This document shows, one piece after another, positions 37,102 to 42,925 of a stretch of 52,036 nt of DNA. This DNA comes from Desulfovulcanus ferrireducens (GTDB lineage: Bacteria; Desulfobacterota; Desulfovibrionia; Desulfovibrionales; Desulfonatronovibrionaceae): contig NZ_JAGUQP010000021.1 of assembly GCF_018704065.1 (NCBI RefSeq), positions 1 to 52,036 of the forward strand. Reading direction: 5' to 3'. The stretch's first letter is position 1. Each line of letters opens with the position of its first letter. A model generated the notes under the pieces. The model saw only the letters and a list, made by a program, of their open reading frames with translations. It was not told the origin of the DNA and did no database searches. The position numbers were made by a program, and so were the translations under genes.

Positions 37102-37950
37102 ATGCAGAAGTATTTGTTCAGGCCGGGGTGTAAAGTTAACCTGTACCTAAATATAGTTTCAAAGCTGGACAATGGTTATCATCAGCTTGAATCTTTGTTC
37201 TATCCTCTTCCAAAACCTTTTGATGAGCTGGTAATCGAGGTTACCACTCGGAAAGAGTTTATACTTAAATGTTCCATACCTGAGCTGGAAAATGAAAATA
37301 TTCTGGAGAAGGCCTATCTTGCATATGGTAAGAAAACCGGCTTCTGGCCGGGTTTAAATATCTATTTACGTAAGAAAATTCCTATAGGTGCGGGATTAGG
37401 GGGAGGAAGTTCGGATGCGGCATGTATGCTGAAGTTCTTAAACTCATTGGCCAAAGATAGGGCTCTTTCTGAAGAGGATTTGCTTGCCCTGGGAAGCGAG
37501 GTGGGGGCTGATGTCCCCTTTTTCATTCTCAATTCACCGGCTTGGGTAACAGGAATCGGGGATAAGATTCGTTTAGAAAATGTCCTCCTGACAGGCTGGC
37601 ATGCTCTTTTAGTCTGTCCCAGAATACATATTTCAACTGCCTGGGCTTATCGCGCCTGGGATGTAAAACAAAAAAAAGATTATCTCTTGACAAGAGAAGG
37701 GGGTAAGGATAAAAAGGCGACCTTCACAAGGACGTTGGTTCTTTACAATAGTTTTGAGCAGGTCGTGCTTCCTGAGTTCAGGCTGTTATATGATTTAAAA
37801 TTGATTATGGTAAGAAGTGGAGCTAGTGCTGTTGTTTTGAGTGGGTCGGGCTCTAGTATGATAGCCTTCTTTAGGAGAGCAGAACTTCAGGAGCAAGCCA
37901 GCCTTATTTTGAGTCAACTTTCCATACCTTTCTATACATATCACTTCTAA
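37102..37950 (+). CDS. ispE: 4-diphosphocytidyl-2-C-methyl-D-erythritol kinase
   Basis: IspE phosphorylates CDP-methylerythritol in the non-mevalonate isoprenoid pathway. The protein has 282 residues, as usual. GHMP-kinase signatures: [11 protein letters not shown] near the N-terminus, the ATP loop [18 protein letters not shown] (about 93-110), GADVPFFI (about 134-141), and [11 protein letters not shown] (about 251-261) near the C-terminus. The ribosome site is weak. A tRNA-Gln starts 3 nt after the stop and prs follows, so they probably share a transcript. Confidence 0.95.
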
Positions 37951-37953
37951 TGC

Positions 37954-38028
37954 TGGGGCGTCGCCAAGTGGTAAGGCAACGGGTTTTGGTCCCGTCATTC
38001 GAGGGTTCGAATCCTTCCGCCCCAGCCA
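37954..38028 (+). tRNA. tRNA-Gln (TTG)
   Basis: The cloverleaf has acceptor TGGGGCG / CGCCCCA, D-arm TCGCCAAGTGGTAAGGCA, anticodon loop TTTTGGT (TTG) and T-arm GAGGGTTCGAATCCTTC, with encoded CCA at 38026-38028. It sits between ispE and prs, 3 nt after one and 20 nt before the next, so it must be cut from a mixed mRNA-tRNA transcript unless it has an internal promoter. Confidence 0.97.
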
Positions 38029-38048
38029 ATTTTTTTTTAGAGGAAAAG

Positions 38049-38996
38049 ATGCCGAGGCATGGAGAATTAAAAATTATCACTGGGACTGCCAATCCTTCGC
38101 TTGCGGAGGGGATTTGTGATCATTTGGGCATGAACTTAAGTCCAACCCTCGTGACTACTTTTAGCGATGGAGAGATACGGGTAGAGATTGGAGATAATGT
38201 ACGCGGTGATGATGTATTTGTAGTTCAATCTACATGTGCCCCTGTAAATCATAACCTTATGGAACTTTGTTTGATGCTTGATGCGCTGAAGCGTGCCAGT
38301 GTGGGGCGGGTGACTGCAGTCGTTCCTTATTATGGTTATGCTCGTCAGGACCGCAAGGTTGTGCCTAGGGTTCCTATTAGCGCAAAGCTGGTGGCAGACT
38401 TTATCACGGTTGCAGGGGTTAATCGTTTGTTGACCGTTGATCTTCATGCCGGACAGATTCAGGGGTTTTTTAATATTCCAGTCGACAATTTGTTTGCAGC
38501 TGAAGTGCTGTTGGATTATATGCGCCAATTTAATGGCGATGTGGTGGTGGTCTCGCCCGATGCAGGGGGGACAGAGCGTGCCAGAGCCTATGCCAAGCGT
38601 TTAGGGGCGGAGCTCGCTATAATAGATAAGCGTCGAGATGCGCCTAATAAGGCTGAGGCGATGCGTATTATCGGGGATGTACGAGATAAGACGGCTATAG
38701 TTCTTGATGACATGATTGACACTGCCGGGACTATGGTTGCGGCGGGCAAGGTTTTGGCTGAGAATGGGGCCAGGGAGGTATATGCTTGTGCCACGCATCC
38801 TGTTTTGTCTGGTCCGGCCGTGACTAGGTTGGAGCAGTCTGTTTTTAAAGAGATTATTGTTACGGATACTATACCTCTTGTTGAAAAGGCCAGGCAGTGT
38901 TCAAAGTTTAAAGTGATTTCTGTAGCCAGTCTGCTGGCTAAGGCCATACATAATATCCATACAGAGTCATCAGTCAGCGTGTTGTTTTCGCACTAA
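38049..38996 (+). CDS. prs: Ribose-phosphate pyrophosphokinase
   Basis: Prs makes PRPP from ribose-5-phosphate and ATP, for nucleotides, histidine and the Upp salvage reaction. The 315 residues fit the class I enzyme. Motifs: [22 protein letters not shown] (about 39-60, split DGEI and NVRG), [10 protein letters not shown] (about 97-106), and the PRPP-loop [14 protein letters not shown] (about 217-230). The ATG at 38049 follows AGAGGAAA and gives the family's usual N-terminus ([16 protein letters not shown]); the frame is open through the tRNA but that part is not protein. It belongs to the ispE-tRNA-prs-rplY-pth run. Confidence 0.96.
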
Positions 38997-39867: not shown

Positions 39868-40473
39868 ATGCGATTTTCTGGACTAATAGTCGGACTGGGT
39901 AATCCTGGACGGAAGTATGTAAAAACCAGGCATAATTTTGGCTTTCAAGTTGTTGATTTATTTTTAAGCCAAAAAGAACGATATGGTCCGGGGGTAGTGA
40001 AGAAAAAGCTGAAGTCTCTGGACTTGGAGCTTTATGCGTGGGACGACGAAGATAAAAAGCAGTCATGGCTTATTTTAAAGCCTTTGACTTATATGAATAA
40101 CAGTGGGGTGGCTGTTTCCAAAATAATGCGCAAGTTTTTTTTGTCGCCAGATAAGGTTTTGGTTCTTCATGATGAGTTGGATTTGCCACTGGGAAGATTA
40201 AAATTTAAATTCGGTGGAGGTCTGGCCGGTCACAATGGACTTCGTTCTATTGCGAGATATTTGGGCTCCCGGGAATTTGCCCGGTTGAGGCTTGGTATCG
40301 GCAGGCCTGAGCCTGGGGGCGATATAGCCGGTTATGTCTTGTCAGATTTTCATCCTGGTGAGCAAGATGTTTGGCTCAAGGTTGTTGAGAAAGCAGTGTT
40401 AGCCCTGGATATTTATTGTCAACATGGTTTCGAGTATGCCCAACAAATAGTAAATAGTTGGAAAATAAACTAA
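39868..40473 (+). CDS. pth: Peptidyl-tRNA hydrolase
   Basis: Pth recycles peptidyl-tRNAs released early from ribosomes. The 201-residue protein has the opening IVGLGNPGRKYVKTRHN (7-23, catalytic His H22), KPLTYMNNSG (about 71-80), DELDLPLGRLKFKFGGGLAGHNGLRSI (about 103-129, split DELDLP and GGGLAGHNG) and a C-terminal helix region. No good ribosome site precedes the ATG. It follows rplY as in other Desulfovibrionales; carD and rho follow. Confidence 0.96.
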   Translation: MRFSGLIVGLGNPGRKYVKTRHNFGFQVVDLFLSQKERYGPGVVKKKLKSLDLELYAWDDEDKKQSWLILKPLTYMNNSGVAVSKIMRKFFLSPDKVLVLHDELDLPLGRLKFKFGGGLAGHNGLRSIARYLGSREFARLRLGIGRPEPGGDIAGYVLSDFHPGEQDVWLKVVEKAVLALDIYCQHGFEYAQQIVNSWKIN

Positions 40474-40590
40474 TTTTGGCAGAAGTTAAGAAATTTAAAA
40501 GCTGACCATAGACTTATTCTCAGGTTTGAGGTATAACTTGCACGCTGCTTGAAATAAGGCAACATAAATTTGCTTTCCCGGAGGAAGAAA

Positions 40591-41121
40591 GTGTTTTCAG
40601 TTGGTGAATTAGTAGTCTATCCCGCCTAAGGCGTCGGAAAAGTTGAAGCTATAGAAGAGCAGGAGATTGGAGGGGTTAAAACTCAATTATATATTGTGCG
40701 CATTCTAAGTAATAACGTAACATTGATGGTTCCTACCGCCAATGCTGAAAATGTTGGGTTAAGGCCAGTATATAACAAGGAAGAAGGCGAGGCTATATTA
40801 GAGTTTTTAAAGGATCGTTCAGATTTTACAGGCTATTCTGGTCAGAATTGGAACCGCCGCTACCGTGAATATTCTGAGAAATTAAAGAGTAAAGAACTAA
40901 AAGATGTAGCTTATGTCCTTAAAGAGCTTTATCTGATTAGTAAGGATAAAGAGTTATCGTTTGGAGAAAGAAGGCTTTTAGAACAAGCTATGGGACTTAT
41001 ATCCATGGAGCTTTCTTATGCTCTAGGCGTAACTCAAAGTGAGGCAAAAAGAAAAATTGAAGAACTTTTTGCTGATATACTTAAAGCAAATGAAGAGGTA
41101 AACGAGGTTGATGAAGAATAG
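40591..41121 (+). pseudogene. carD: carD with an in-frame TAA at codon 13
   Basis: This is a CarD-family RNA-polymerase-binding regulator. GTG at 40591 follows GGAGGAAG and reads VFSVGELVVYPA, then TAA at 40627-40629, then GVGKVEAIEEQEIGG continuing without other damage to the end (177 codons in total). Relatives usually have a glutamine or histidine in VYPA(Q/H)GVG, so CAA to TAA is a one-base change. The lost part is the polymerase-binding strand of the RNAP-interaction domain. After the stop no good start with a ribosome site is seen (GTG at 40696 only). The C-terminal DNA-binding helices are intact. Gene order pth-carD-rho supports the identity. A sequencing error, recent nonsense mutation or readthrough cannot be told apart here. 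Confidence 0.85.
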
Positions 41122-41677: not shown

Positions 41678-42925
41678 ATGAATTTGTCTGAATTGAAGAC
41701 TAAATCCATGAATGAGTTGATGGAGTTGGCTAGTCAGTTTAAAATTGAGAATCCGAGTGGGTTGCGTAAACAAGAATTAATATTTTCTATTCTTCAGGCC
41801 TGTGCGTCCCAAAATGGGACTATATATGGAGAAGGTGTTTTGGAGATTTTGCCTGATGGATTTGGTTTTTTACGTTCGCCCATGTATAGTTATATGCCAG
41901 GTCCGGACGATATATATGTTTCACCTTCTCAGATAAGAAGATTTGGTTTGCGTACTGGTGACGTTGTCTCTGGTCAGATCAGGCCGCCCAAGGAGGGAGA
42001 ACGTTATTTTGCTTTGCTAAGAGTCAATAAAATTGGCTATGCTGACCCGGATGAATCCAAGAATTTGGTTTTATTTGATAATTTAACCCCAATTTATCCT
42101 AATGAACGGTACATTATGGAGAATGGCGCTGAAAATTATTCGGCGCGTATAATTGATCTTTTAACTCCTATTGGAAAAGGTCAAAGAGGGTTGATTGTTG
42201 CTCCTCCAAGGACAGGAAAAACCATGCTTCTACAGACCATTGCCAATTCTATAAATGCTAACCATCCCGACGCCTTTCTCATAGTGCTGCTCATAGATGA
42301 GCGTCCAGAAGAAGTCACAGACATGGAGCGTACAGTCAAAGCCGAAGTAATTAGCTCCACTTTTGATGAACCACCCCAAAGGCATGTCCAGGTGGCGGAA
42401 ATGGTTTTGGAAAAAGCCAAGCGCTTGGTTGAGCGGAAGATGGATGTGGTTATTTTACTGGATAGCATCACAAGGTTGGGGCGGGCATATAATGCTATAA
42501 CCCCCTCATCCGGTCGGGTTCTGTCCGGAGGTTTGGACGCCAATGCTCTGCAAAGGCCAAAGAGATTTTTTGGGGCTGCACGAAATATTGAAGAAGGAGG
42601 AAGCCTGACCATTATTGCAACAGCCTTAATCGACACGGGTTCGCGCATGGATGAGGTTATATTTGAAGAGTTTAAAGGTACTGGCAATATGGACCTTTAC
42701 CTGGATCGGCACCTGGCTGATAAGCGGGTTTTTCCTGCAATCGATATAAATCGTTCGGGAACCCGCAAGGAAGACTTGCTCTTACCTAAAGATGTGTTAA
42801 ACCGCGTGTGGATCTTGCGTAAAGTCCTTTCGCCCATGAATCCCATCAATAGTATGGAATTCCTTTTGGATAAAATGCGAGGAACAAAAAATAATAAAGA
42901 ATTTTTGGATATGATGAATAAATAG
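41678..42925 (+). CDS. rho: Transcription termination factor Rho
   Basis: Rho is the hexameric RNA helicase that ends transcription at many operons. The 415-residue length is standard. Order: N-terminal Rho-N domain ([18 protein letters not shown]), the RNA-binding cold-shock fold with [31 protein letters not shown] (about 61-91, split GFGFLR and [13 protein letters not shown]), Walker A APPRTGKT with K181, and the Q-loop/R-loop regions [27 protein letters not shown] (about 287-313). AAGGAGAAAA precedes the ATG. It has its own long leader. Confidence 0.97.

Follow-up and report, generated by a model that had tools for sequence, protein, structure and literature searches.

The carD Locus and Its Internal Stop Codon

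CarD is an accessory protein that stabilises the open complexes of RNA polymerase. The window, that is, the whole stretch of 52,036 nucleotides of Desulfovulcanus ferrireducens DNA that was analysed, contains a carD frame that is interrupted near its start. The features of the locus are as follows.

39868–40473, + strand: pth, peptidyl-tRNA hydrolase, the intact upstream neighbour (PF01195, ORF)
40532–40537, + strand: TATAAC, a possible -10 element of the carD promoter; the upstream sequence around it is conserved in the same-genus relative L033
40580–40590, + strand: ribosome-binding site GGAGGA (40580–40585) and spacer ahead of GTG 40591, kept in L033
40591–41121, + strand: carD/cdnL, interrupted frame of 177 codons, counting the internal TAA and the terminal TAG (translation; Pfam, PDB and orthologs)
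40627–40629, + strand: in-frame TAA at codon 13, replacing the Gln (CAA/CAG) of the VYPAQGVG motif (translation; relatives' codons)
40696–41121, + strand: first ORF past the TAA that begins with ATG, GTG or TTG, 141 aa, its GTG corresponding to Val36, with neither RID domain nor ribosome site (ORF, Pfam)
41678–42925, + strand: rho, the intact downstream neighbour (Pfam Rho_N and Rho_RNA_bind, ORF)

The TATAAC is not among the calls of a consensus promoter scan. Read from GTG 40591 on the + strand, the frame begins GTGTTTTCAGTTGGTGAATTAGTAGTCTATCCCGCCTAAGGCGTC..., and its translation is VFSVGELVVYPA*GVGKVEAIEEQ...NEVDEE*, the asterisks marking stops. In a Pfam search, the part after the TAA matches PF02559 (profile positions 13–56) and PF21095, and the translation of the 12 codons before the TAA supplies the strand missing from the post-TAA RID match. 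The order of domains, RID and then CarD_C, is that of a CdnL/CarD gene, and the frame has PDB matches to CarD/CdnL. What such a gene should also have, an unbroken frame giving both domains, is interrupted here by the TAA at 40627–40629. The site lies mid-contig, at 40.6 kb of 52 kb.

An earlier reading made from the sequence alone had described a lone TAA at codon 13, a GTG start with a good ribosome site, and a stop placed exactly in the VYPA(Q/H)GVG motif. Translation confirms the stop, GGAGGA does precede the GTG, and relatives have Gln at the motif position, with His in one alphaproteobacterium. The same reading counted about 164 undamaged codons after the stop; undamaged they are, but the sense codons number 163, ending at a TAG at 41119–41121.

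Codon 13 in Related Genomes

Whole genomes and GTDB contigs supplied the carD genes of relatives. In all Desulfovibrionales relatives read codon by codon, the codon aligned to the TAA is CAA or CAG; one distant alphaproteobacterium has CAC (His). The closest available comparison is a metagenome-assembled genome of the same genus (G001, L004/L033), which has CAG at this position and a CarD protein 90% identical. It was also the best match in a scan of genome contigs for a second strain of the species, in which none was found. The claim of the sequence-only reading that one CAA-to-TAA change explains the stop requires CAA in the immediate ancestor: CAA to TAA is a single transition, whereas from CAG, the codon of the same-genus relative, two changes are needed.

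A carD match was obtained in 58 of 61 close genomes (57 without the window's own); in all but the window's genome, carD is free of internal stops. In a search across the order, 289 of 348 genomes had a match, and again no internal stop outside the window's genome was seen among the matches listed (about 150). Two apparent exceptions were rejected: the TAA in G023 is the normal end of the gene, and the split match in G223 is broken by a run of N. A nonsense pseudogene is recognised by a premature stop that has no counterpart in orthologs and is the only lesion, and this is the situation of carD here. A recoded stop, in contrast, should be shared by related species at the corresponding position; among the matches listed, this one is present in the window's genome only.

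Selection on the Interrupted Frame

Codons 14–161 of carD, compared with L033, give dN 0.017 and dS 0.72 by NG86, and dN 0.019 and dS 0.47 by YN00, for a dN/dS of about 0.02–0.04, and there are no indels between the two. These values agree with the earlier statement that the rest of the gene shows no decay, and they indicate strong purifying selection on the remainder of the frame up to very recent times. Since 58 of 61 close genomes match carD and the post-TAA dN/dS is so low, this is no spurious frame in which a TAA has turned up by chance.

The same comparison bears on the age of the stop. About 6 amino-acid changes separate the two sequences over codons 14–161, both branches together. By our own estimate, neutral evolution of the frame over a fraction f of the window's branch would have produced about 120f amino-acid changes (half of dS multiplied by about 330 nonsynonymous sites). 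Therefore, either the TAA arose within roughly the last tenth of the window's branch or the base is wrong.

Assembly Quality and Other Lesions

The main rival explanation is an error of base calling, consensus or assembly, with carD intact in the organism itself. The draft assembly has 60 contigs and some N gaps, the gene is intact and constrained on both sides of the TAA, and the internal stop occurs in one genome only, among the matches listed; all of this would fit an error. (Two stretches of the window's genome, L183 and L235, contain runs of N totalling about 96–99, probably scaffold gaps.)

The frequency of similar lesions was estimated in a sample made up of the window and 40 further stretches of 20 kb each, together about 852 kb of the 2.59 Mb genome, compared by tblastn with non-overlapping ORFs from the relatives G004 and G003. 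About 193 of the relatives' ORFs had an ortholog-like match in the sample, covering 169 kb. Clear lesions were found in two of these conserved genes (about 1%, on small numbers), the carD TAA and the following.

L172:12464–13364, equal to G000:C1 at about 92.46–93.36 kb: livH-type branched-chain amino acid permease gene (BPD_transp_2) with a single +1 frameshift

The frameshift lies at about 92.71 kb of G000:C1, where this genome has GCTTTATGG and G004 has GCCTATGG, and the permease appears as two pieces in whole-genome family searches. In the reverse direction, about 199 comparisons of the genome's own ORFs with G004 and G003 gave no clear lesion; the stops listed there were rejected, being alignment ends or an effect of a prs ORF that starts within a tRNA-Gln. 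An apparent control lesion at L167:8875 was also discarded, as it is the antisense of selB. The prs ORF as called (348 aa, window 37950–38996) begins inside a tRNA-Gln gene (UUG, 37954–38028); the real prs start is probably downstream, so that longest-ORF calling would mis-annotate this gene.

The presence of another isolated single-base lesion in the same assembly adds to the case for an error. On the other hand, the carD site is mid-contig, two lesions in about 193 conserved genes mean that the error rate cannot be high, and a true codon of CAG, like that of the congener, would require two errors within one codon. A rate of lone lesions near 1% is compatible with ordinary recent pseudogenes and also with consensus errors at a low rate. 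We regard an error in the sequence as a serious possibility, though not the likelier one.

Search for Rescue of the Interrupted Frame

The sequence-only reading had also raised the prospect of a CarD made in two pieces or by readthrough. In the first version, the 12-residue peptide would be accompanied by a product restarted downstream, for instance at GTG 40696. The open frame from this GTG exists and the C-terminal domain of its product is intact, but no ribosome site precedes it, the GTG is simply the codon for a Val36 conserved in the congener, and Pfam gives CarD_C only, so the product would not be expected to bind RNA polymerase. This restart was therefore rejected. A working restart with its own ribosome site that regains the N-terminus had been named as a finding that would overturn the reading; no in-frame start restoring the RNA polymerase-binding domain follows the TAA in the carD frame. 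Synthesis in two pieces is thus highly improbable. Frameshifting was rejected as a means of rescue because both halves of carD share one frame, and a second carD or compensating RID protein was likewise rejected, as the genome's RID domains are one in CarD and one in Mfd.

In the second version, UAA codon 13 would be read by a suppressor tRNA or through recoding, and full-length CarD would be made. The intact post-TAA frame and its low dN/dS are also predicted by readthrough, and UGA appears to be recoded in this genome. A tRNA-Sec (L113) and a selB-like gene (L242) are present, which makes selenocysteine the probable meaning of an in-frame TGA that occupies a Cys position in an MvhD-like protein (GADGVILMG*HLGECHYLDGN; L228:19542–19544, minus strand, G000:C2 at about 119.5 kb). 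However, tRNA-Sec (UCA) reads UGA, not UAA. Transfer RNA genes were located genome-wide with Rfam RF00005 and their anticodons typed with ARAGORN. All the anticodons so typed, from about 50 tRNA matches, are standard and include tRNA-Gln UUG, tRNA-Gln CUG and tRNA-Sec UCA; weak, unclassified Rfam matches on C1 correspond to no ARAGORN gene. The UUA anticodon that a recoded UAA would call for is not among the places found and typed, and a suppressor tRNA was rejected on this ground. Nor is there a sign of genome-wide reassignment, in which TAA would stand at sense positions in many genes, as carD has the only clear in-frame TAA in the roughly 193 sampled conserved genes. The stop is moreover absent from the same genus and the rest of the order, among the matches listed, and a recent mutation accounts equally well for the low dN/dS. 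No positive evidence was found for readthrough of the carD UAA, which, though conceivable, we consider extremely improbable. The same must be said of the idea that the ochre codon is tolerated or exploited, with low-level full-length CarD tuning open-complex stability. Even taken jointly, readthrough and two-piece synthesis remain very unlikely.

Absence of carD Elsewhere in the Order

Of 246 good genomes in the order, a carD match was obtained in 220, leaving 26 with none. Seven of the latter, 91–100% complete, were checked (G081, G082, G083, G113, G114, G133 and G137), and in each the sole RID match lies in a frame longer than 1150 codons, that of Mfd. These seven genomes represent apparent losses in at least two genera. 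Judged by gene content, then, loss of carD occurs naturally in the order, and the role of CarD seems dispensable already in several of its lineages.

In Caulobacter, CdnL is non-essential yet required for normal growth, and its loss slows growth; it is reported to be non-essential in Bacillus, and CdnL/CarD is essential in Myxococcus and Mycobacterium (PMC5324124). A Tn-seq paper on D. vulgaris (PMC10102598) makes no mention of CarD in its main text. The sequence-only reading had said that loss of CarD's polymerase-binding strand would be notable next to rho, implying the loss of a key polymerase factor. A loss there may be, but the surprise is lessened by the near-complete genomes of the order that have no carD and by the dispensability of CdnL in Caulobacter (PMC5324124). 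Since about one in ten good genomes has no match and the assembly contains another isolated lesion, the carD stop is unremarkable.

A Probable Recent Nonsense Allele

We propose, as the probable explanation, that the window's carD is a recent, inactivating nonsense allele of a single codon. Translation would start at GTG 40591 and end after 12 residues, and, with no other copy in the genome, the strain or population would lack functional CarD (RID plus C-terminal domain), a loss that would be tolerable because of the accessory nature of the protein. In favour of this allele are the in-frame stop, the Gln codon in relatives of the order, the low dN/dS after the TAA, the single carD copy, the failure to find a UUA tRNA, the natural losses of carD and the second lone lesion in the assembly. 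Against it, a 60-contig draft with N gaps may hold a consensus error; a stable null would be expected to be costly, given the slowed growth of Caulobacter upon CdnL loss (PMC5324124); and the CAG of the same-genus relative means that the TAA may have needed two changes. On balance, we infer that the TAA base is real and that the CarD protein is not made. Of the possibilities listed in the sequence-only reading, recent mutation and base error are thus favoured, and the two-piece or readthrough CarD is left unsupported: no suppressor tRNA was found, the stop is not conserved in the genus, and the restart is both unusable and devoid of RID.

If the TAA is real, this is a naturally CarD-null sulfate reducer in which carD was losable without other visible decay, and a natural strain in which to test the role of CarD in Desulfovibrionales. 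Should it prove an error, the case would amount to no more than a warning about the assembly.

Comparison with Known Systems

The CdnL/CarD family, with the domains PF02559 (CarD_TRCF_RID) and PF21095 (CarD_C), includes Mycobacterium CarD, Myxococcus CdnL and the CarD-family structure 2LWJ. Read past the TAA, the window's carD encodes both domains at full length, it sits between pth and rho, and its orthologs are intact in most of the order. Unlike the family, its frame is closed at codon 13, and the full protein is not encoded as sequenced.

Stop codons are known to be recoded as selenocysteine (UGA) and pyrrolysine (UAG), and UAA/UAG have been reassigned to Gln. The carD stop resembles these cases in replacing a conserved residue within a constrained frame. 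It differs from them in that the codon is UAA with no cognate tRNA found, the stop is not conserved in relatives, and no in-frame TAA occurs in the other conserved genes sampled.

The closest likeness is to an ordinary bacterial nonsense pseudogene: one premature stop, no further decay, a single genome affected, intact relatives, and losses of the family elsewhere in the order. The only difference is that carD is essential in some other bacteria (mycobacteria, myxobacteria). The carD stop therefore looks like an ordinary, already known kind of feature and not a new way of making CarD.
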